From NCBI RefSeq assembly GCF_900103835.1, contig NZ_FNID01000002.1:1-64000 (forward strand): a stretch of 64,000 bases of DNA. The letters run 5' to 3'. This stretch comes from Acetanaerobacterium elongatum. Its GTDB lineage: Bacteria; Bacillota; Clostridia; Oscillospirales; Ruminococcaceae. Both the position numbers and the translations under genes were made by a program. Positions 150-29,785 of this stretch are shown here, in pieces (position 1 is the first letter of the stretch; every line of letters starts with the position of its first letter). A model generated the notes under the pieces. The model worked only from the letters and a program-made list of their open reading frames with translations. It was not told the origin of the DNA and ran no database searches.

Positions 150-1181
150 ATGGAAGGCCGGCTGTTCTTAACGGCTGTAATGGCCATGACTGTTTTGTTT
201 TCAAACGGCAGCCTGATTGATAATTCGGTGGCACCGTTCACAGTAATTCCAATCTATCCATCGAATCAGATTGAAGGGGATGCCGGCTATTTTTATATTG
301 ATCTTAAAGCTCAGCAAACACAAGAACTGTCGGCCGTAATCTATAACAACACCTCAAGCAATGCTGCAATAGCGGTTGAGACAGCGGATTGCTACACCTC
401 TCCTCATGGCGGGCTGATTTATGTAACTAACAATACCAGCGATGATATTGGGTATATTGACCGCAGCTATATGATGGCTGACCATATTGTACCCTTTGAA
501 ACACAGCTTGTATTAAAGCCGAACGAAAGCCGTACCATCAGGTTCAGTGTCGCCGCTCCATCGATACCCGAGGGAGAGGCTATCGGGGCAATCCGGTTTG
601 TTGATGCCGCACCGCGGCAGGAAGATGATCAGTCTCTCAGCCGGGAAGCTAATTTTCAGATAAATGTAAAAAGAGCGATAACCATTCCGGTTCGCATTCG
701 TCTTGCGCAGCCGCTAACCACAGAAACCCCTGCTATACAAGTCGGAGACCTGAGCTTTGATCAAGACGAGGGAAAGGCTGTTCTTTCGCTTTCCAACAAT
801 CTTCCGGTTATTAACCGATTGGCTAAAATCAGCTATGATGTGTTTGATCATGTGGGCGAGCACCTTTATGAAGGTGACTTTGACCTTGAGAAGATGGCCC
901 CGAAAACCAGTGTTATGGTGCCCATTGAATTAAACGGTAACGCAATCTCCCCCGGCAGATATAGGGTTAACGTGAATTACCCCATAGATAATACCCAAAC
1001 CGATGAGGTAAGCAGAGAGCTTGTTATTGATAATACCACGGCAGGTAACATGAAGGCTGAATCGTCAATTTCTGAGCCTTCAAGTGAATTTGAGGGCTAT
1101 TTTGTTGGTATTGTCTTTGTTCTTATCGCTATTATAATTGCTTTGATACTGCTTTTAGTGAGAAAGAGAAAAGAATCTTAA
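150..1181 (+). CDS. DUF916/DUF3324-type cell-wall protein, membrane anchored
   Basis: The predicted 343-residue exported protein starts at the ATG at 150, which sits 9 bases after GAAGGAG; upstream in-frame starts lack this spacing. A hydrophobic N-terminus acts as signal peptide. The text from about residue 25 (FTVIPIYPSNQIEGDAGYF) is the hallmark opening of the DUF916 'WxL protein peptidoglycan-binding' domain, followed by a beta-rich region like DUF3324. The C-terminus has one membrane helix (about residues 312-336) and a short basic tail (RKRKES). In lactobacilli and enterococci such proteins work with WxL-domain surface proteins; no WxL gene is in this window, so the partner is unknown. 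Confidence 0.75.
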   Translation: MEGRLFLTAVMAMTVLFSNGSLIDNSVAPFTVIPIYPSNQIEGDAGYFYIDLKAQQTQELSAVIYNNTSSNAAIAVETADCYTSPHGGLIYVTNNTSDDIGYIDRSYMMADHIVPFETQLVLKPNESRTIRFSVAAPSIPEGEAIGAIRFVDAAPRQEDDQSLSREANFQINVKRAITIPVRIRLAQPLTTETPAIQVGDLSFDQDEGKAVLSLSNNLPVINRLAKISYDVFDHVGEHLYEGDFDLEKMAPKTSVMVPIELNGNAISPGRYRVNVNYPIDNTQTDEVSRELVIDNTTAGNMKAESSISEPSSEFEGYFVGIVFVLIAIIIALILLLVRKRKES

Positions 1182-20182: not shown

Positions 20183-20337
20183 CTGCTTGATGCCTCGCTT
20201 CATTGTGGCATTTTCTGTCTTTATACTATGCGCTTCTGTGCAGAATGTTTCGTTAGGCTGCTTATTTGAAATTAGTATTATAGTAGCACAAACCCTTGGC
20301 GAATGACAGCACATTATATGAACAGAAAACAAAACCT

Positions 20338-20440
20338 CTCATGAATACCCCCAAGCAAAAATGTCTGCTTGCCGCAGACATTTTTAGCGGTATTGCTCCG
20401 GCGGCGCATGTCCGCCTGCGCAATGTTATTTCGATTTATA
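20338..20440 (-). repeat. 103-bp dispersed repeat, copy 1
   Basis: This copy is the reverse complement of 24706-24808 with about four mismatches (96% identity). It contains two nested hairpins: TTGC...GCAA enclosing GGCGG..CCGCC, and AAAAATGTCTGC/GCAGACATTTTT. It lies just downstream of the WYL regulator gene. The pairing with copy 2 was found by direct comparison. Confidence 0.85.
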
Positions 20441-20474
20441 TTCTTTTAACAACCTAACCCCTCTTGCGGGATTA

Positions 20475-21383
20475 TTAATCGTTATAGAATGCTGCCATCC
20501 TTTTTAAACGTTCACCGATTCCGCGGCGTACCTCGGGCGGGCCCAGTACCTCGGCCTGATCGCCGTAGGAAAGCAGGTAGCCGTACAGCCATTCCCCCTG
20601 CGGAAAGTCACTGTGAATGGTGAAGCTGCCGTCGGGGTTTTTGGTGATGTTTTCTTCGTCAAACTCGTCGTAGACGCGAAAGGCCAGCTGTTCGCCCATG
20701 TGCAGGGTAATGGGTACCATTACTCCGTTAAAGGGGTGATCCTCCCCGGTGTAGGGGGTGTCGGGTATTTCACGCGTAAAGGTTTCGCCGGTGCCCACCG
20801 GGTTTTTGATGCGGGAGAGCTTAAAGATTCGAAGCTCCTGCTTCTTGCGGCAGAACGCGTAGAGATACCAGTCCTGCCCCTTGAAGATCAGCCGAAGCGG
20901 TTCCGCGGTTCGGGCTGATTTTTCGCCCATGGAATTGTAATAGTCAAACGCCAGCACCTCGCCGCGCAGGATGCACTGCTTAAGCAGCGCAAACTTTTCG
21001 CGCTCCTTTGTACCGCCGCCCCAATAGGTGAAGTCCACATCCAGCCATGCAGTGCGCTTTTTGCCAAAAAGTGCTGCGAGCTTGGTAAGTGTCTGCTCGG
21101 CGCCAGGAACCTCGATGGCGCTCAGGCTCTGCAGGGAGGCCATGATGTCCTGCTGCTCCTGCTCGGTAAGCAGCGATTTATCAATCGTAAAGCCGCCCAG
21201 CAGACGAATCCCCCCGTGCTTGCCTTTGCAGGTATACACCGGTATGCCAGCACTGCTGAGCACGTCGATATCGCGGTAAACGGTACGGGTTGAAATCTCA
21301 AACCGCTCGGCAAACTCGGCTGCCGTAACGTGGCCTCGTTCGGTGAGCAGGTATACCATCTCAAACAGGCGCTGCATCTGCAT
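20475..21383 (-). CDS. WYL-domain transcriptional regulator (YafY type)
   Basis: A 302-residue regulator: N-terminal winged helix (MQRLFEMVYLLTERGHVTAA, then FEISTRTVYRDIDVLSSAGI), then a WYL domain (the FKGQDWYLYAFCRKKQELR segment) that senses ligands, and a C-terminal extension. The start at 21383 follows GGAGGGG with 9-base spacing; the longer frame to 21413 does not. It lies 50 bp downstream of the binding-protein gene on the same strand, so the two may form an operon. Confidence 0.88.
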   Translation of the reverse strand: MQMQRLFEMVYLLTERGHVTAAEFAERFEISTRTVYRDIDVLSSAGIPVYTCKGKHGGIRLLGGFTIDKSLLTEQEQQDIMASLQSLSAIEVPGAEQTLTKLAALFGKKRTAWLDVDFTYWGGGTKEREKFALLKQCILRGEVLAFDYYNSMGEKSARTAEPLRLIFKGQDWYLYAFCRKKQELRIFKLSRIKNPVGTGETFTREIPDTPYTGEDHPFNGVMVPITLHMGEQLAFRVYDEFDEENITKNPDGSFTIHSDFPQGEWLYGYLLSYGDQAEVLGPPEVRRGIGERLKRMAAFYND

Positions 21384-21433
21384 AATTTTTGTCCCCTCCG
21401 GCGCAAACGCCATAACCGTCTCTTGATGTTATG

Positions 21434-22705
21434 TCAGCTTGTTTTACCTTGCGCAAAAAGCTCGGTGATATCCTCTTGAATCTGTGCGCGGCTTCGGGTG
21501 CCCGAAACATAGGCCTGCAGCGCAAGCCCCAGCGGCTGCTCGATATCGTTCGGGCTTTCAAAAATCCACCAGGTACAGGTTTGCTTTTGCTTGATGGCCT
21601 CGGCAGCCTGAACCGAAAGCGGTGTATCCGGTACCGGTACATCCTTTTGAGGCGAGAGCTGCTTTACCTGATTCGGCACCCAGCACTTACCGTACTCTGA
21701 GGTAATCAGCCAGTTTAAGAAGGTAAGCGCTTCGTCCAACACCTTGGAATCCTTATAAACCCGCAGGGTGAGGTTGGAATCAGCGGCGATAACGCCTGTG
21801 CCGTTTAAACGCGGTGCCGGCAGGTACCCAAGCTTCAACTCGGGGTTTTGGTTTAGGATGGTTTGCTCGGCCCACGAGCCCTGATGGATCATCGCTGCCT
21901 TGCCTGCGGCAAAATCTGAACACTGGCTGTCGAAGGTCGACTTCATCGGCTCAAGGCCGCCATACTGCTTTACAAGATCGAGCACGTCCAGCGCAAAGGC
22001 AGTTTCGGGCAGTTCCCCTACCTTGACGGTACCCTGACGGGTGGCCTCAAGCAGGCCGTGGTAATCCCCCGAATTCACGTCACTCATTGAGGGGTAGAAG
22101 GTTTGGGGCAGCACCCACCAATCGGCAAAGCCGGTGGCAAAAGGCTGAATGTTGTTTTGGCTGAGCTTCTCACACACCGCGCGGTATTCATCAAGGGTTT
22201 GCGGAAGCGCGGTGATGCCTGCAGCACCAAACAACGTCTTATTGTAAATGAAGGAATGGGATTGTACCAGCAGCGGGCAACCCCAAATGCGGCCGTTTAC
22301 TGTAACACCGCCCAGCAGGGCAGGTTCGATATTCTGGATAAACGGCTGATCGTCCAGCGCATACAAATACCTCTGATATAGGTAATTATCGTTGTAGGCA
22401 CTGGTAATAAAGATATCGGGTGCTTCACCGGCATTCAGCTTGGTTTTTAATACCGTACCGTAGTCATCCCGCCGAACATCCATTTGTATGATTACGTTTG
22501 AACGGTAGGCCTCATAGACATCTTTCATCTGGCGGTACTGCTTGTCAAGCTCGGGGCTGTTCAGCATTAGGTTCAGCTCAATCTTTTCGTGTGCAACAGG
22601 TTGTTCGGGCTGGGCTGCCGGGTATTCTGTTTCCATCCTCACACAGCCGAAGCAAAGCGCAAGAATTACAGAAACGGCAAGAGCTCTAAAAAGGATTGTT
22701 TTCAT
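21434..22705 (-). CDS. Extracellular solute-binding lipoprotein, family 1
   Basis: A 423-residue sugar-type ABC binding protein. The signal ends in a lipobox, LCFGC (Cys about 21), so it should be lipid-anchored. Mature features include QMDVRRDDYGTVLKTKLNAG and DIFITSAYND near the N-terminus and the KAAMIHQGSWAEQ motif typical of this family. GGGAGGA precedes the ATG. It is divergent from the histidine-kinase-like gene, and no permease or ATPase genes are nearby, so it may serve as a sensor partner or use a transporter encoded elsewhere. Confidence 0.88.
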   Translation of the reverse strand: MKTILFRALAVSVILALCFGCVRMETEYPAAQPEQPVAHEKIELNLMLNSPELDKQYRQMKDVYEAYRSNVIIQMDVRRDDYGTVLKTKLNAGEAPDIFITSAYNDNYLYQRYLYALDDQPFIQNIEPALLGGVTVNGRIWGCPLLVQSHSFIYNKTLFGAAGITALPQTLDEYRAVCEKLSQNNIQPFATGFADWWVLPQTFYPSMSDVNSGDYHGLLEATRQGTVKVGELPETAFALDVLDLVKQYGGLEPMKSTFDSQCSDFAAGKAAMIHQGSWAEQTILNQNPELKLGYLPAPRLNGTGVIAADSNLTLRVYKDSKVLDEALTFLNWLITSEYGKCWVPNQVKQLSPQKDVPVPDTPLSVQAAEAIKQKQTCTWWIFESPNDIEQPLGLALQAYVSGTRSRAQIQEDITELFAQGKTS

Positions 22706-22886
22706 ATTAACTGTCCTCCCCGCCGGCTGCTTTATTATCCCATTATTTTGATATTAGTATATCCTTTTTAATAGATTTTGTAAATTATATAGTAAAAATT
22801 TTATATAAAACATTTAAATTTTCTGAGAAAACGTGCTATAATAAACTAAATTGCCGTTTTGTGCAAAACGCAGAAGGATGAAGGGT
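22706..22886. promoter_or_regulatory. Divergent A/T-rich control region
   Basis: The 181-bp region between the binding-protein gene (left) and the sensor gene (right) is strongly A/T-rich. A TATAAT at about 22840-22845 is a likely -10 box for the sensor gene; no good -35 box could be assigned. Confidence 0.4.
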
Positions 22887-24653
22887 ATGGCTTTCGATAT
22901 GCTGAGAACAAAAAGACAAAAAAAATCGATAACGATTTCGGCAAAACTGGCGCTGGTAATGGCGTTTTCTTTGCTTGCCTGCTTATTGCTGCTGTTGGGG
23001 TATATGGCGCGCGGCATGGTAAACAGCATGAGGTTGGGGCAAGCCTCTAAAGAGACAGCTGTTGTAGAGATGCGCCTAGGCGAGCTCGAAAACTACTACG
23101 CAACGCTCAAAAGCTATTCAATCTCGATTCGCAACGACGAGAAGTTCATGAAGATTATCAGTATGCCGGAGAGTACCTTTGAGGGTGGGGAGTATGTTAA
23201 AACGCTGCTTCGCAATATCTACTACTCGCGCAACGATATACACTCCTTTAAGGTTTATCTGCTGGGTGAGGACAAAAACTACACCTTTGAGGTGGGAAAC
23301 ACCGATGTAAAGGAGAATAAAAATCCCCCGAAAAACCAGATACCCGGGTTTACGGAATCGCTTTCAAATGGCGATTTTCTCTATATCAGCCCCAGTATGC
23401 AGAAGGATTGCCTTTTTACCGTTACAAGAACAATTATTGATATAAAAACACAAGAACCGCTGGCCGTTGTGGTGCTGGAGGTAGATGACTCCTTTTTTAA
23501 AGCCATTGCCCGGGACAGCAGCCGTATTCTTGCACTGCTGGATTCCGGAAACCGGCTGTATTATTCCACCAATACCTCAATCGTCAATGCCACCAATATG
23601 CTTTACCTAAGCCCCTATCTGGTGGGACAGGCCTCTGCGGCGGGTTCGGTTGCCCAGATTAAGAAGGATTACTACCTTCTGGCCTATGATACCTCCAAAG
23701 ATACCGGCTGGCGGCTTGTAAGCCTTGAGCCGGAAAGCGTGATTTTTCAGGCGGTGTTGAATAACAGTATAAGATTTATGGGGGTTGCTCTTTCACTAGC
23801 CTTAATTGGTGCGCTGGTATTTTTCTTATATATCCGTCGTCTTGCCAAGCCTTTATATGCTCTTTCAGACGCGATGGGCAGCCTTGCTGAAGGGAAGCCC
23901 GCCGTTTTGGAGAATATTAAAGGCGGGTTGGAGGGAGAGCTTTTAAACAAACGGTTTTTAGCACTTTCAGACAGGATTGAGACGCTTCAAAATCAGAACA
24001 GCGATATCCTGCAGCAGGAGCAGGCCCTGCGGCTGGAGGCACTGGAGGCAACCTTCAACCCCTATTTTTTGTGCCATGTGCTGCAGTCGATACAGCTGAC
24101 GGCGATGCGCAACGGGCAGGATGAGATTCAAACCATGACCCAAACGCTCTACTCCATGGTGGACTATGCCATGAACGCCGAAAAATGTATGAGTGTTGCC
24201 AAAGAGGTGGAGCATGTAAAGGAGTATCTCTTCTTAGAGCGCGTTCAGGTAAATGACCGTCTGGAGTACCGTATTACCGCCGATAAACAGGTTAACGGCC
24301 TGAAGGTACCCAAAATTCTTTTGCAGCCGATGGTGGAAAGCTCGATTATGCGTTCGCTTGAAAACCACCGTGACAGCTTATTCATCGATATTAGGATTGC
24401 TCTTAATGGCAATGTACTTACCGTAACGGTGCAGGATGACGCAGGGGCAACGGCGGCGCAGGCAGAGGAGATTAAGAGGCAGACAGGTCAGCTTCAGCAT
24501 ACGGCAAAGCAGGGGATTACCGGCACCAGCCTTGCAAACCTTGCGGCGCGTATCGGATTGATGTATGGCGAAAGCGCAAGCTTCAACCTCACCCGAGAGG
24601 GAGAGGATACCGTTTGCCTTACCCTGAGCATTCAGCAGGATGAGGAAACTTAG
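22887..24653 (+). CDS. YesM-like sensor kinase with degenerate catalytic residues
   Basis: A 588-residue membrane sensor: helix at about 19-39, a ~250-residue outer domain, a second helix at about 295-317, a HAMP-like linker, then His_kinase and HATPase regions as in YesM/LytS-type kinases. The usual NPHFLYN phosphorylation box reads FNPYFLCHVLQ, so the acceptor His is Tyr (residue 393). The N-box, normally QPLVENAIxHG, reads QPMVESSIMRS, with Ser at 485 for the Mg/ATP-binding Asn. The late G-box is partly kept (GTSLANLAARIGLMYG). It may be a pseudokinase or bind ATP abnormally. No response regulator gene is adjacent. ATG 22887 is preferred for Shine-Dalgarno spacing. Confidence 0.85.
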   Translation: MAFDMLRTKRQKKSITISAKLALVMAFSLLACLLLLLGYMARGMVNSMRLGQASKETAVVEMRLGELENYYATLKSYSISIRNDEKFMKIISMPESTFEGGEYVKTLLRNIYYSRNDIHSFKVYLLGEDKNYTFEVGNTDVKENKNPPKNQIPGFTESLSNGDFLYISPSMQKDCLFTVTRTIIDIKTQEPLAVVVLEVDDSFFKAIARDSSRILALLDSGNRLYYSTNTSIVNATNMLYLSPYLVGQASAAGSVAQIKKDYYLLAYDTSKDTGWRLVSLEPESVIFQAVLNNSIRFMGVALSLALIGALVFFLYIRRLAKPLYALSDAMGSLAEGKPAVLENIKGGLEGELLNKRFLALSDRIETLQNQNSDILQQEQALRLEALEATFNPYFLCHVLQSIQLTAMRNGQDEIQTMTQTLYSMVDYAMNAEKCMSVAKEVEHVKEYLFLERVQVNDRLEYRITADKQVNGLKVPKILLQPMVESSIMRSLENHRDSLFIDIRIALNGNVLTVTVQDDAGATAAQAEEIKRQTGQLQHTAKQGITGTSLANLAARIGLMYGESASFNLTREGEDTVCLTLSIQQDEET

Positions 24654-24665
24654 ATTATAACAATG

Positions 24666-24691
24666 ACGCGGCAGAAATCATCTGCCGCGTT
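24666..24691 (+). terminator. Hairpin terminator, first copy of a 26-bp direct repeat
   Basis: ACGCGGCAGA/TCTGCCGCGT stem 13 bases after the sensor gene. The identical 26-bp sequence recurs at 24893-24918, where it is followed by TT. Only the distal copy has a T-tract, which suggests the original terminator was split by an insertion. Confidence 0.7.
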
Positions 24692-24705
24692 AGGCTGTCA
24701 AAAAG

Positions 24706-24808
24706 TATAAATTGAAATAACATTGCGCAGGCGGACATGCGCCGCCGGAGCAATACCGCTAAAAATGTCTGCGGTGAGCAGACATTTTTGCTTGGGGGTG
24801 TTCATGAG
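24706..24808 (+). repeat. 103-bp dispersed repeat, copy 2
   Basis: Inverted partner of 20338-20440, about 96% identical. Together with the following GGGGGAC...GTCCCCC palindrome (about 24809-24861) and the hairpin GAGCGTGTCGAG/CTCGACACGCTC (24866-24892) it fills the ~200 bp between the two copies of the 26-bp direct repeat. Confidence 0.85.
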
Positions 24809-24892
24809 GGGGACGGCTGAGGAACCAAACCACTTGGTTTGGTGACGAACGAAGTCCCCCTTATGGAGCGTGTCGAGTTTCTCGACACGCTC

Positions 24893-24918
24893 ACGCGGCA
24901 GAAATCATCTGCCGCGTT
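24893..24918. terminator. Hairpin terminator, second copy of the 26-bp direct repeat
   Basis: Exact second copy of 24666-24691, followed on the plus strand by a T-tract. It also lies directly beyond the stop of the minus-strand VOC gene and could end that transcript. Confidence 0.7.
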
Positions 24919-24919
24919 T

Positions 24920-25309
24920 TCATGTATCCCCTGCAGTTGAGTTGTGTTTAGCTAGGGGGCAGGTAAGCTCAATGATATTCCCCTCGCTGTCGGCAAACTC
25001 CAGCACCAGATTTGTGCCGATGGCAGTGAGCGGGAACACTATCGGGGCATGTAGCGCTTGAAGCCTTTCCAACGCGGTATCCAGACTGCTTACCGTTAGG
25101 CTAGGAAGGCAGTTGTTGCCCCAGCTTTTCGGTTCGTTCATCTTCTCGTGGGCAAACAGCCCGTATCGAAAACCTCCGATGTTAAAAACGCTGTAGATAT
25201 CGCTCTTTTCGGTTACCCTTTGCCCGAGAAGGTACTCGTAAAAGCGGATAGCTCTTTCCATATCCTTTACGCAGATATAGAGCGATTTCAGCTCAAAGAA
25301 TGGTTTCAT
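24920..25309 (-). CDS. VOC/glyoxalase family protein
   Basis: A 129-residue single VOC module. The beta-alpha-beta repeats start at SLYICVKDMERAIRFYEYLLG and at SLDTALERLQALH, closing with LVLEFADSEGNIIELTCP, the standard metal-edge strand. Such proteins bind a metal and act as isomerases, dioxygenases or drug-binding resistance proteins; function here is open. It lies among other small accessory genes on the minus strand. Confidence 0.85.
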   Translation of the reverse strand: MKPFFELKSLYICVKDMERAIRFYEYLLGQRVTEKSDIYSVFNIGGFRYGLFAHEKMNEPKSWGNNCLPSLTVSSLDTALERLQALHAPIVFPLTAIGTNLVLEFADSEGNIIELTCPLAKHNSTAGDT

Positions 25310-25387
25310 ATATCTCCTTAAATAGGAACGCCCCCTGTGATATGAGAAGGGGGCGATTCATTTGTAGCTTCAATATCTATGGGAAAG

Positions 25388-26041
25388 TTAGGCCTTCACA
25401 ACGGGATGCCGCAACACGGTCTTGCGTTTTTTGGGAGATATCCTTCGTGGGTCGCCAAGATAGATTTCATGGTGGCGCCGGATGGTGCCGTCTGGCAAAA
25501 CCGCATCGATGTTGGTTTTTAGCCCCTGCTGTTCAATGAAAGCGTCTACCTTTGCAAGCGTGTGCGGTTCGGTTTCATACGGGCCGATGTGCATAATATG
25601 AACGCACAGCCCCTCTTCAAAGTCGCACAGCCGCGCTCTGCTTACGTCGATGTGCGGCTTTTTCTTTGCCACCTCGCCGCAGGCCCAGCTAAACACTTCT
25701 TGGGTGACAAACTCGGGCTGGCGCAGCATGGAGGTCCAGCAGTATTTGGATTTTTGGGAAAAATCCATGTCGGTGCTGTCTTCCAGCCACCACAGCCCCT
25801 CGAGCGGGGCTACGGTGTAGTCGATGTAGCCCTTCGGCTGCTGCCCGCTCAGCTTGCTCATTTTAATGGTGTAGCTGAGCGCATACAGTATCTCAACGGC
25901 CTGCTGGTATTCGCCGCGCTCGATATTGGGGTTGCCCTTACCGTCCACCATAATAAACCGCATGGCGGGAACGTTAATAAGGGTTGGCTCGGTTGGCGGC
26001 AGATAGAATTCCTTTTGCTTTTTAAAGTCGAGTTTCTCCAT
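25388..26041 (-). CDS. GyrI-like domain protein
   Basis: A 217-residue protein starting at MEKLDFKKQKEFY (AAAGGA upstream), related to GyrI/BmrR-C small-molecule-binding domains without a DNA-binding part. Landmarks are PTLINVPAMRFIMVDGKGNP and the later CVHIMHIGPYETEPHTLAKVD. Stand-alone members bind or hydrolyse cyclic or aromatic compounds in some species; no substrate is suggested by the neighbours. It follows the zinc-ribbon gene after 62 bp and may be cotranscribed. Confidence 0.85.
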   Translation of the reverse strand: MEKLDFKKQKEFYLPPTEPTLINVPAMRFIMVDGKGNPNIERGEYQQAVEILYALSYTIKMSKLSGQQPKGYIDYTVAPLEGLWWLEDSTDMDFSQKSKYCWTSMLRQPEFVTQEVFSWACGEVAKKKPHIDVSRARLCDFEEGLCVHIMHIGPYETEPHTLAKVDAFIEQQGLKTNIDAVLPDGTIRRHHEIYLGDPRRISPKKRKTVLRHPVVKA

Positions 26042-26103
26042 GTCAATGTCATTCCTTTTAAGCTTGTTGTAACACCGAAGTGTATCACGGGTAGTCTTTC
26101 CTG

Positions 26104-26376
26104 CTATGCTTGCTTCCAGCGTTTGAGGGTGGGAAACCATGCGAGCATCTCTTTTTTTGCCTGCTCACGGTCGGTATAAAGGCCGGAATCCTTGCTGTAA
26201 TCAAGGCAAAGCTCGATCATCTCTTCCATGGTTTGGTTGCCGGAAAACGCGCCGTTCTGGTAGCAGTAGGTACAGTAGTCCTCATTCTTGCTGCCGTCGG
26301 TGTTGGTGCCGAAGTCCTCGGCCTTTGCAAGGGGCATGCCGCAGCTTTGGCAATACAGGGTGGTGCCTTCTGTCAT
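26104..26376 (-). CDS. Small putative zinc-ribbon protein
   Basis: A 90-residue protein starting at MTEGTTLYCQSCGMPL behind AAAGGAAG. Four cysteines form a CxxC...CxxC zinc ribbon (CQSCG and CTYCYQNG), followed by a short helical region (TMEEMIELCLDYSK, then WFPTLKRWK). This is the common clostridial 'putative zinc ribbon domain' family. Function unknown; it lies upstream of, and probably with, the GyrI-like gene. Confidence 0.85.
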   Translation of the reverse strand: MTEGTTLYCQSCGMPLAKAEDFGTNTDGSKNEDYCTYCYQNGAFSGNQTMEEMIELCLDYSKDSGLYTDREQAKKEMLAWFPTLKRWKQA

Positions 26377-26503
26377 CACAATACTTCCTTTCGGTTGTGT
26401 TTTTGATTGTGATTTCAGTATAATCGTTGTAACTTGACAACGATGCGTCATATTATAAATATTTTATTGGCAAAGAAGTAAAGAGAAAGTCATCATGCAA
26501 TTT

Positions 26504-26533
26504 AAAAAAAGTCTGTACATCCGGTGTACAGAC
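26504..26533 (-). terminator. Rho-independent terminator (minus strand)
   Basis: A GTCTGTACA/TGTACAGAC stem (26511-26519 with 26525-26533), followed on the minus strand by seven Ts, ends the hydrolase transcript that comes from the right. Confidence 0.85.
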
Positions 26534-26669
26534 TATAGGATACGCTTCGCATATATCTGAGCGCTTTTGGAAAGATAGGGTTTTGTGAGGTTTGCATTCA
26601 GCAAGCATCGGTCCGGCGCAGGGGTGTATTATGTTCAAACAAAAAAAGAATTCATCTGTGAAAAACGGA

Positions 26670-27437
26670 TTATTTAACCGTTAATTTCTTTAGCTCATCA
26701 ACCAAACGGTGTGGATTATCAATAATTTCTCCATGCCCAAGCCCCGCAAAACAATTCTCTTGCATATTGGGGTAGAGCCTATGCAGTTCTTTCAATGCCT
26801 TTTTCATATTATATTCCTTCTCGCCATACCAAACGGATACGCTGGCTTTGGTTTGAGGAGGCCAATTTTTAAGAATGGGATACATTTTTAGTCCCCATTC
26901 CCATGTTGCTTTAATTGAAGCCTCGGTTGCACAAAGGCTCACCTTTTTAAGCATTGTTTCTATATTATTATCTTTACGGGCAAGCAGTTTTTTAAGATAC
27001 AACGGCAGTTTGGGATTCTCGCCTTTTATACTGTTTATTATCTTAACACATCTTTTTGGCATTATTTTAATCAGCGGTTTATTGAAAATTCCGTAATTCA
27101 TATACTCAGGCCCGCTTAATACCATGTGGCCGATCCGTACGCGATCGTCCTTTAAAAGATATACCGAAGGCCCACCCCCGAGAGATTCGCCGAACAGAAT
27201 ATCAAGATGACCGTTCAGGTGCTCCTTAATATAGGTTGAAAGGCGGTTAGCTTCTTCTTCAAATCCGGGATAGGTTGTGTTCTCGTTTTCGTCAAAACCG
27301 TCCAGGCCGACGATAATTACATGGTACTCGTTATCCAACAAAGGATATATATCAGAAAATTGCCTCCATGTCATAAGATTTCCGTGAAGGAACATAACAG
27401 TCTTTGTATTATTCTTGCCAAATTCATAGAACTGCAT
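26670..27437 (-). CDS. Alpha/beta hydrolase
   Basis: A 255-residue single-domain hydrolase. The oxyanion strand is VMFLHGNLMTWRQF, the nucleophile elbow is FGESLGGGPSV (Ser in GxSxG), and the catalytic His is in GLGHGEIIDNP near the C-terminus; an Asp between them completes the triad. No signal peptide, so it acts in the cytoplasm. Locally A/T-rich compared with the surroundings, like the next gene. Substrate unknown. Confidence 0.85.
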   Translation of the reverse strand: MQFYEFGKNNTKTVMFLHGNLMTWRQFSDIYPLLDNEYHVIIVGLDGFDENENTTYPGFEEEANRLSTYIKEHLNGHLDILFGESLGGGPSVYLLKDDRVRIGHMVLSGPEYMNYGIFNKPLIKIMPKRCVKIINSIKGENPKLPLYLKKLLARKDNNIETMLKKVSLCATEASIKATWEWGLKMYPILKNWPPQTKASVSVWYGEKEYNMKKALKELHRLYPNMQENCFAGLGHGEIIDNPHRLVDELKKLTVK

Positions 27438-27491
27438 AATTTCACCTCACATAGGCAATACATGCAAAGCTCGATAAGGGCCCCGGATTGC

Positions 27492-28304
27492 TCATAATAA
27501 TGCCTTGTTTTTTTCTTTACGCTTAATTGTTATGAATATTGTAATTGCTGCAGCAATCAGGGAGCCTGTAACATACAGCAGATAAGGTATGATACTTCCG
27601 TTGTTGTATTCCGGATTGATGGAGAACAAATTGCAGCAGAGGTTTTCTGAAAAATGCAATACAGACGCTGGAACAATATTGCCGTTTGCCGCTTTTGTAA
27701 CAGCAAAATAGATGTAACTGTCTGCGATACAGCCAAGTGTGAAGAGTATTAGAGGGGCGGACATTGTTCCGGAAATAAAATAGTGATAGTGCCATACAGC
27801 CCAGATAATACCCAGTATGATCGGCATTACTAATTCATTCAGGTATATCCCGAGTTTATCCTGAAAAAAGCCTCTCCAGCCAAGCTCTTCGGCAATCAGC
27901 GCCCAACACACGATAAGGATTTTTTTAAAAGTCAGTACCCCGAGTGTAGGCGGAATATGAAAAAACAGCCAAGAAAACAGCTTGGCTGCGCCGATTATCA
28001 CAACCGGAAGGAATAAGCTAAGCAGCACCATATTGAAATTGAAATGATACACATAGCGCTCTTTTAAAAATTGCCCGAGCCCATGGCTTGCTTCGAAATA
28101 TAAGACTGTCAGTATGGCAGCCAGCGACGGGGCAGCCGCTTCTAGGCCAAACAGGATTAGGGTTAAAGCGTCTGAGCGGCCCAGCGGCGTGTACATTTTT
28201 AGAAGCACGAAGAAAAGCGGCAGCACAAACACCAATAGCAAATAGACGGCTATTTGTTTGAGATTACTTTTCTTATTATTGTGGGATAATATCATGTACA
28301 ACAA
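27492..28304 (-). CDS. CPBP family intramembrane metalloprotease
   Basis: A 270-residue membrane protein with about eight helices. The CPBP (Rce1/Abi) motifs are present: EELGWRGFF (EExxxR) and HYHYFIS with the second metal-site His. Family members cleave membrane peptides or act in bacteriocin self-immunity. No ribosome binding site is clear before the start. A second CPBP gene lies at 56899-57684. The region is richer in A/T than the flanks, which may mean recent acquisition. Confidence 0.82.
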   Translation of the reverse strand: MLYMILSHNNKKSNLKQIAVYLLLVFVLPLFFVLLKMYTPLGRSDALTLILFGLEAAAPSLAAILTVLYFEASHGLGQFLKERYVYHFNFNMVLLSLFLPVVIIGAAKLFSWLFFHIPPTLGVLTFKKILIVCWALIAEELGWRGFFQDKLGIYLNELVMPIILGIIWAVWHYHYFISGTMSAPLILFTLGCIADSYIYFAVTKAANGNIVPASVLHFSENLCCNLFSINPEYNNGSIIPYLLYVTGSLIAAAITIFITIKRKEKNKALL

Positions 28305-28524
28305 CCAATCTATTAGGAATTATACGATAGAATCGAATCTAATTTTAGTCGTATTTAAACTACCGATGTGCTTATTTTATGCAGTTAGAAATATGGGTAA
28401 TAACAGCAAGAATTATTATAACTATAAGACTGAAAAGAAGGTATCTTTAGCCCTCTCCCACTCTGAAGATTTAACAAATTCAGTAAACCCATCAAACCCA
28501 TATTTACAGAAATATCGTGATTTT

Positions 28525-28950
28525 CTATAACAACGCGAAATGGGCGCTCTCGATAACTGCTTTCATTTGACATAGGCAAAAAGGGTGTCCGGCGGGGTCG
28601 AGCATAACTCTCCATGTATCAGAAAATTGCTCCTCTGCGATGGTTGCTCCGCAATGGACTGCATACTCAACTGCTTTTTCCAAATCGTTAACGGCGAAGT
28701 CTAGATGTGCCATCTGCTGTTGAGCTTCAGGCTTTTCCGGCCACACAGGCGGTTGATACGCAGGGTTCCGTTGAAACGTTATACCGGGATATGCCCCCTG
28801 ATTGGTTCCCGGAGCGTATACACACGCATAATCTTCATCGATAGACAATACTTCCCATTTGAGCAACGCCGCATAGAATTTTGCTAACTCATGCGGGTCT
28901 GTGCAATCCACCGTAAAGGAGTACATTTTGATTTTCAATTCATCAGACAT
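28525..28950 (-). CDS. VOC/glyoxalase family protein
   Basis: A 141-residue VOC protein, distinct from the one at 24920. The domain runs from YSFTVDCTDPHELAKFYAAL to the metal-edge strand WRVMLDPAGHPFCLCQ, with the mid-strand QMAHLDFAVNDLEKAV carrying the usual His and Asp. The sequence is of the DUF of 'VOC family, bleomycin-resistance-like' kind. Function open. Confidence 0.85.
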   Translation of the reverse strand: MSDELKIKMYSFTVDCTDPHELAKFYAALLKWEVLSIDEDYACVYAPGTNQGAYPGITFQRNPAYQPPVWPEKPEAQQQMAHLDFAVNDLEKAVEYAVHCGATIAEEQFSDTWRVMLDPAGHPFCLCQMKAVIESAHFALL

Positions 28951-28996
28951 AAAGCAATACCTCCTAACTTAAGTTTAGCTTATCAATTAGGGTGAG

Positions 28997-29785
28997 TTAC
29001 GCCTTTTCGGTTTGTCTGAATCTTTTTCTTGTTTGGTGTTCTGCATCCAGCGCCACCTCTCTTGCCGGGATACCTGTAAGTGTTGCAAGTTCATTCTGCG
29101 CTTCAATTACACGGTTAAGCCATAACTGTTTAACCTCATCAAGGTCGCGGCAGTTTTTGGGGATGGAGATTGGTTTAGCGAAGATTAAGCGGTTCTCGGC
29201 CCCTTCAACCGCCTGCTCGATAAACGCCGGCAAAACAGGAATACCCAGGGACTTCGCCAGCCAGAACGCTCCGCGCTCGATATCCTCCGGTTTATCCTTG
29301 TTGATGTCATAGATGGTTCCCTGAGAGAATATCAAAAAGTGCTTTGGCTTTGGGCCTTCCTTAAACCACTTCTCTGCGGTTCTGATTGCCGCCATAGAAC
29401 CGCCCAAGCTGTTTCGGTCTACCGGAATCACCTTTTCCATCTCTAATATCGGCAATAATTCCTTGGGGATGGAAACCCCGTTAAAGCAGTTTTCCTTGGC
29501 GAAAACAAACAGCTGCGGATAGGTATCCATCACCTGACGCATAACATCATAATAATAGCTCATAATCAGCGGAGCATCGGAATCGGTTAAATGATTGGTG
29601 GCGATGATATAAGAGGCCGTTGTGAAATCCTCCGGTACATGATAGGCTTTAAAGTTATAAACCTTTAAAAGCATTTTCTTTATTTCGATTAACTTAGCCC
29701 TTAGCTTTTCCGGATTGTTCACGATGCTGAGAATCTCTTCTGAGGACGCTTCATTAAACAGTGAACTTGCATTATACAAGTGCAT
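28997..29785 (-). CDS. PlsC-type acyltransferase
   Basis: A 262-residue glycerolipid acyltransferase-like protein. The catalytic Hx4D motif is IIATNHLTDSDAPLI; the later GTIYDINKDKPEDIERGAFW and IPVLPAFIE correspond to the acceptor-site blocks. No membrane helix is obvious, so it should bind the membrane surface. It likely transfers an acyl chain to a lysophospholipid or related lipid. Confidence 0.82.
   Translation of the reverse strand: MHLYNASSLFNEASSEEILSIVNNPEKLRAKLIEIKKMLLKVYNFKAYHVPEDFTTASYIIATNHLTDSDAPLIMSYYYDVMRQVMDTYPQLFVFAKENCFNGVSIPKELLPILEMEKVIPVDRNSLGGSMAAIRTAEKWFKEGPKPKHFLIFSQGTIYDINKDKPEDIERGAFWLAKSLGIPVLPAFIEQAVEGAENRLIFAKPISIPKNCRDLDEVKQLWLNRVIEAQNELATLTGIPAREVALDAEHQTRKRFRQTEKA

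Follow-up and report, generated by a model that had tools for sequence, protein, structure and literature searches.

Pseudo-histidine kinases seem to have been little described, the literature found including DivL/CckA and Rcs, and no YesM-type member turned up in the titles and abstract openings covered by our literature search. DivL of Caulobacter, which carries a tyrosine in place of the phospho-accepting histidine, is reported to have no autokinase activity in vitro and to act by binding (PMC4211667). With respect to ligand recognition, CuaD of Ruminiclostridium cellulolyticum is reported to bind the ectodomain of CuaS in two-hybrid tests (PMC10384115), and in Corynebacterium glutamicum a binding protein, GlnH, and a transmembrane (TM) protein, GlnX, are said to control a downstream kinase (PMC9769921). 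The gene described here encodes a YesM-type membrane sensor of Acetanaerobacterium elongatum and is located within positions 1 to 64,000 of contig NZ_FNID01000002.1 (assembly GCF_900103835.1), the whole of this 64,000-nucleotide stretch being hereafter called the window. We consider it most probable, at roughly 55%, that this gene was formerly a sensor histidine kinase gene of a sugar-uptake locus and that its product is now a non-catalytic receptor, still maintained as protein.

Loss of catalytic residues in the sensor

The sensor open reading frame (ORF; Table 1), for which an alternative in-frame start is found at 22851, is free of internal stops. Its product has 588 amino acids (aa) versus 595-612 aa in those sister kinases (see below) with complete genes, and no stop, frameshift or truncation marks the gene as a pseudogene. 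A match to the His_kinase domain PF06580 (53 bits for a Pfam cut-off of 25.2) places the protein by domain among YesM/LytS-type sensors, and a weak dCache match was found under the Pfam cut-off. HATPase_c and HAMP were not detected (Pfam, E<=0.1), in contrast to the intact sister kinase of genome G1105 in which they score 51.4 and 34.5 bits, respectively.

A sequence-only reading of this DNA had proposed a pseudokinase, having noticed Tyr at the His position of the NPHFL motif and Ser in the QPxVEN box. Both codons are indeed TAT and AGC, and the proposal is borne out by more residues than it had named. The alignment with relatives comprises 61 rows that correspond to 58 distinct kinase genes, a non-random set made mostly of each genome's best match. 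The phospho-accepting His is present in 57 of the 57 distinct relatives readable at this position (L028 is cut at the His) and the N-box Asn in 58 of 58, the A. elongatum sensor alone being without both. Further substitutions are N397H, H489R, G519A in the G1 box, G548S in the G2 box and P583Q. In another alignment, with 49 other rows, the sensor deviates at 7 of the 19 columns with at least 95% conservation, at 11/27 when the threshold is 90% and at 19/41 when it is 80%, as compared with at most 2, 5 and 10 columns, respectively, in the other rows. Glu484, Asp517, Gly520 and Arg555 are kept. Because the catalytic residues are changed, autophosphorylation by the usual route would not be expected.

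An AlphaFold2 model built from 50 aligned sequences (mean pLDDT 82.9, pTM 0.57) comprises a long N-terminal helix, a dCache-like sensor domain, a second membrane helix, the DHp helices and an alpha/beta CA domain; the domain borders used here are our own and were set from this model and the alignment. The extracellular part resembles dCache domains with Z scores of 16-18, and the CA lid region (residues 538-545) has a pLDDT <50. With Tyr393 in place of the His, and with the DHp and CA folds predicted to be kept, the protein would be a pseudo-histidine kinase, in which another residue occupies the His position of a retained fold.

Sister loci and the likely ancestral locus

Orthologues of the dead form were sought among 61 genomes of relatives, 396 of the same family, 394 of the order, 391 of the class and 230 of the family of G1105. 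These samples overlap and include the A. elongatum genome where it belongs, and the genus is represented by that genome only. First-look candidates scored per genome were at most three (own family, order and class) or five (G1105 family), so that lower-ranked homologues would escape. A homologue distinctly nearer to the sensor came from the class sample, in G1105 (E 9.7e-49), and the G1105 family gave more. In a full-length tree, five kinases of that other family (G1105, G1327, G1244, G1251 and G1193) form the sister group of the sensor with an SH-aLRT support of 100; an earlier transmitter-only tree did not place the sensor firmly, its end branch of 4.77 being the longest of 51. The sister kinases are 26-28% identical to the sensor, and all five retain an intact phospho-His and an intact N-box Asn. 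Such intact residues in orthologues had been taken in advance as a sign of simple recent inactivation. They were found, and none of the 58 relatives shares the substitutions, but the low identity to the sisters indicates an old, lineage-specific loss and not a recent one; at ca. 27% identity, the split between the two lineages is itself old.

The five sister loci (L158, L165, L166, L167 and L168) have a common plan. In all of them, genes for a binding protein and two permeases diverge from the kinase gene, and a short regulator with receiver and AraC domains is found behind the kinase in the four that have sequence there, the G1251 contig ending within the kinase. Pfam was run on G1105 only, and genes of the other loci were assigned by tblastn to those of G1105. 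In three of the five loci, a GH31 gene is found beyond the binding protein. Neighbours of the GH31 family would suggest alpha-glycosides, and the sister loci perhaps serve in alpha-glycoside uptake and sensing. The window locus has in common with them the homologous sensor, a sister binding protein and the divergent arrangement. It differs in that the two permeases, the receiver-AraC regulator and the intact His and Asn are missing, and in having a gene encoding a WYL-domain regulator, for which a search of the five sister stretches gave no homologue.

The divergent gene had been described as encoding a sugar-type binding lipoprotein, and this description holds with an SBP_bac_8 match and a leader whose lipobox, judged by eye, is imperfect. 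In a tree of 12 binding proteins, the window protein is sister to those of the five sister loci with moderate support (90/91), and it shares 31% identity with the G1105 protein over 388 aa. As the binding protein of genome G020 is nearly as similar (30% over 337), this kinship rests on tree and position and not on identity alone. The G020 gene occurs with two permeases and without a kinase or regulator match in 19 kb, and a further homologue in G184 (21%) is found with permeases, near a kinase and a regulator match. Homologues at E<=1e-30 occur in 3 of the 396 genomes of the family, including that of A. elongatum. The window protein retains five of the six Trp that are invariant in the five sisters, among them those of the WW and QGxW motifs, which the nearest solved relative, 9xor, also has. 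A structure model of this protein (mean pLDDT 51.1) was not used.

Relocated permeases or a relocated regulator of the sister type were not seen in the A. elongatum genome, in which 30 of the 33 permease loci were compared. Its nearest permeases are 34-36% identical to those of the sisters, which are mutually 68-75% identical, and its nearest regulator is 32-37% identical to theirs, which are 50-58% identical to one another. From these comparisons, the ancestral locus likely consisted of a binding protein gene and two permease genes diverging from a kinase gene and a regulator gene. The window locus would then be a sister-type locus that was stripped of permeases and regulator and in which the WYL gene is new. 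Alternatively, the lineage of the sensor split off before the locus was complete.

Retention or decay of the sensor gene

When the end branch of the A. elongatum protein was divided by the mean of those of the five sisters, ratios of 1.1, 3.3, 4.1 and 1.2 were obtained for the sensor domain, HAMP, DHp and CA, respectively, and of 1.9 for the whole transmitter (1.6 without the motif columns). Mean identities to the sisters, and among the sisters, were 0.21 and 0.23 for the sensor domain, 0.32 and 0.51 for the transmitter and 0.30 and 0.66 for the binding protein; the sensor domain changes rapidly in every row, so that its contrast with the transmitter is of limited weight. Since HAMP and DHp were accelerated and the sensor domain was not, constraint appears to have been released at the contacts serving phosphotransfer, dimerization and regulator binding.

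The main rival to a maintained receptor is a slowly decaying relic. The locus would have been dismantled with the loss of permeases and regulator, the unused kinase would have lost its residues, and two ORFs would still be without a stop. Decay had also been raised by the sequence-only reading; we regard it as the less likely of the two, and its fit to simulations of neutral change is poor. When neutral decay was run to an equal loss of conserved residues from the most diverged intact kinases, the ORF was still stop-free in just 4 of 1,800 runs, and six other intact kinases used as starts (6 x 60 runs) accumulated on average 9.6-12.3 stops, with a minimum of 2. Both TM segments of the sensor are uncharged, and this feature together with a stop-free ORF was obtained in one of 4,500 neutral runs covering three rates and three starting genes. 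These simulations consist of substitutions alone, with indels uncounted, which makes them lenient to decay, and they treat every loss as neutral; a protein that lost residues adaptively, or under partial constraint, would in either case be a retained one. The normal branch of the sensor domain also argues against decay. A first neutral test, based on 62 positions invariant in the five sisters (0/500 runs stop-free), was set aside as biased because two intact outgroups keep just 39 and 38 of these positions as compared with 36 in the A. elongatum protein.

Several observations weigh against a maintained receptor, and most of them speak for decay. In addition to the stripping of the locus, codon scores are low for the sensor (0.06) and the binding protein (0.10), the 18 long ORFs of the window ranging from -0.09 to 0.46 with 16 above 0.2; the WYL gene, at 0.32, is typical. 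The low scores may reflect a weakly expressed gene, a foreign origin or weak selection. The binding protein is accelerated as are HAMP and DHp, with an end branch of 1.41 versus 0.14-0.33 in the sisters, and it deviates at 98 of the 171 positions that are invariant among them. Relaxed selection alone would likewise speed up the most constrained parts, namely HAMP and DHp. Much of the modelled sensor fold derives from the alignment of intact kinases, and the output partners proposed below remain candidates. Finally, no second kinase-dead member was found in the genomes searched, which is why decay stays the main rival. Beyond the intact sister group, the samples contained no close orthologue of the dead form. 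A peptide scan of genome contigs gave 81 stretches, none of which was confirmed, and the sensor had no match on plasmids by DNA, nor by protein at E<=1e-30.

A degenerate scan for L[QE]Ax[FILMV]NPYFL in 84,980 species, which covers that motif and the H-to-Y change only and possibly does not include the A. elongatum genome, gave 36 stretches. Only one corresponds to a PF06580 kinase, the other 35 being judged unrelated by frame reading. This kinase, from Caproiciproducens galactitolivorans (L142:2149-4098(+)), has NPYFL, but its N box (LENAVEHG), HATPase_c and HAMP are intact, which makes it, by its sequence, a further instance of the H-to-Y change in an otherwise intact kinase. It is followed by a lipoprotein-like ORF with no hit in Pfam, then by two permeases and a receiver.

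Partner kinases, regulators and possible output

The genome (2.9 Mb in 73 contigs, completeness 97.2) encodes three other PF06580 kinases (on contigs C63, C54 and C15), all with His and Asn. These intact kinases, each beside its own regulator, are candidates for the active partner kinase that had been suggested. The suggested orphan AraC-type response regulator was not found in the assembly: of 21 receiver matches and 17 AraC helix-turn-helix (HTH) matches, three ORFs have both and each of them adjoins one intact kinase, for which reason none qualifies as an orphan YesN-type regulator. An AraC protein of about 525 aa (contig C66; L106:6511-8088(+)) was considered and rejected, its HTH being near the N-terminal end and no receiver match being found; its long C-terminal part has no assigned family. 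The intact YesM/YesN pairs (L107:5362-10360(+), L108:1016-6305(+) and L109:294-4295(-)) each also adjoin a binding-protein gene, so that sensing by way of a binding protein may be usual in this genome. As had been noted earlier, no response regulator gene lies beside the window sensor, and the six genes past it (24920-29785) have unrelated Pfam domains.

The presence of three intact kinases with cognate regulators leaves room for another explanation, in which the dead kinase would pair with one of them, or dock their regulators as a decoy, and so tune them. Such tuning would be akin to that of RetS and GacS. The model still shows the DHp hairpin, and a precedent is offered by DivL, a pseudo-histidine kinase with Tyr that is described as binding a regulator (PMC4211667). 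Against this, the DHp, which provides the dimer and regulator contacts, is the most accelerated part of the transmitter (4.1-fold), and the sensor is not closely paralogous to these kinases, with 25-28% identity and no grouping with them in trees (the full-length tree holds C54 only). Nothing specific points to heterodimerization, and we regard this explanation as doubtful. That the sensor is still an active kinase using other residues is very improbable: the four retained residues listed above, the modelled CA fold and the near-normal CA rate would agree with it, but the phospho-His, the Asn four residues on, the N-box Asn and one Gly per G box are changed, and DivL with its Tyr is reported to be without autokinase activity in vitro (PMC4211667).

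If the sensor is a maintained non-catalytic receptor, as we favour, the sugar-loaded binding protein would still dock on its extracellular domain, by analogy with CuaD and CuaS, and the receptor would change shape across the membrane without phosphotransfer. Output would then occur by protein contact, which is the weakest step of this scheme; it is favoured because the catalytic residues are changed and because DivL, with its Tyr and no autokinase activity, appears to work by binding. By position, the WYL regulator is the best candidate for the output partner, and one of the other YesM-type kinases of the cell is the second candidate. The sister loci suggest what the ancestor was, and with it what survives when a two-component sensor loses phosphotransfer, the sensor domain and membrane helices staying while HAMP and DHp are released. 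A working receptor of this kind, if true, would mean that a kinase fold passes a sugar signal across the membrane with no phosphate involved.

Neighbouring genes and a repeated element

The spacing of the WYL and binding-protein genes suggests that they are probably on one transcript. In the divergent intergenic region, promoter-like sites were found in both directions, TTTAAA-18-TATAAT ending at 22842 on the (+) strand and TTTACA-17-TATACT ending at 22756 on the (-) strand, with 10 of 12 consensus positions each; such sites number 9 in 3.7 kb for 4.0 +/- 2.2 expected from shuffles. Rfam gave no match at gathering level over 20200-25000.

Two copies of a 124-base element, in inverted orientation, bracket the WYL, binding-protein and sensor genes, which suggests that the three form one block. 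A search of 311,430 bases of the same genome, and of further small loci from it, gave no third copy. The predicted folding of each copy is better than that of shuffled sequences (z -2.46 and -3.59), and a strong hairpin is common to the two. The element has no phage match and no Rfam match, and its exact 44-base core is absent from viral contigs. A 26-base hairpin sequence is present twice, as a direct repeat flanking copy B (24666-24691 and 24893-24918), in the manner of a target-site duplication or of a terminator that has been doubled. A more specific form of the receptor hypothesis would make the block a single unit, bracketed by its shared 3' element, in which the binding protein outside, the dead receptor in the membrane and the co-transcribed WYL regulator as new output constitute a phosphorylation-free sugar receptor; taken as a whole, this proposal is speculative and we give it a low probability.

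Table 1. Location of the sensor gene, its altered motifs and the surrounding features in the window
Feature	Position	Strand	Basis
Kinase-dead YesM-type membrane sensor, 588 aa	22887..24653	+	ORF, Pfam, model, alignment
Tyr393 (TAT) replacing the phospho-accepting His, in FNPYFL	24063..24065	+	Codon, alignment with relatives
Ser485 (AGC) replacing the N-box Asn, in LQPMVESS	24339..24341	+	Codon, alignment with relatives
Degenerate G1 box DDAG (residues 517-520), DNGxG in most relatives	24435..24446	+	Position from protein numbering
Degenerate G2 box GTSLANL (residues 546-552), GxGLxN in most relatives	24522..24542	+	Position from protein numbering
Sensor parts (residues): TM1 ~21-41; dCache-like extracellular domain; TM2 ~297-316; HAMP-like region; DHp 376-455; CA 456-588			
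Sugar-type solute-binding protein, 423 aa, lipoprotein-like leader	21434..22705	-	SBP_bac_8 78 bits, tree
WYL-domain transcriptional regulator (HTH_11, WYL, WCX)	20475..21413	-	Pfam; starts 20 bases past the binding-protein stop
Divergent intergenic region, promoter-like sites both ways	22706..22886	.	Consensus matches only
Copy B of the 124-base element, just 3' of the sensor gene	24689..24812	+	Sequence comparison
Copy A of the 124-base element, inverted, just 3' of the WYL gene	20335..20458	-	92.7% identical to copy B

Comparison with described systems

The CuaDSR system, as reported, resembles the window locus in having a dedicated sugar-binding lipoprotein that adjoins a sensor with two TM segments (PMC10384115). 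The same adjacency is found in the window, where the binding-protein and sensor genes are divergent with 181 bases between them. CuaDSR is described with a YesN-type regulator (PMC10384115), whereas the window locus has neither a cognate regulator of this type nor the catalytic residues. For the transmitter, the best solved match is GanS of Geobacillus stearothermophilus (Foldseek E 4.0e-11 for 6swk; VIA Z 18.8 and root mean square deviation 4.3 over 189 residues for 6swj); these entries were deposited as a kinase domain and are 16-18% identical to the sensor, and a literature search on GanS signalling found no paper. The GlnH-GlnX pair, for which the protein kinase PknG is the proposed output, is similar to the window pair in combining a binding protein with a transmembrane protein (PMC9769921).

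A likeness to the dead transmitter is offered by DivL, in which Tyr is reported to replace the phospho-His with the transmitter fold kept (PMC4211667). DivL differs in its PAS-domain sensor, its kinase type, its retained regulator binding and a Tyr that is described as conserved in most alphaproteobacterial homologues (PMC4211667). The A. elongatum protein, in turn, is a PF06580 sensor in which several ATP motifs are also lost and whose regulator gene is gone. Pseudo-histidine kinases are thus known as a kind; what is new here is the occurrence of one in the YesM family, the additional loss of ATP motifs and the location in a stripped binding-protein locus.
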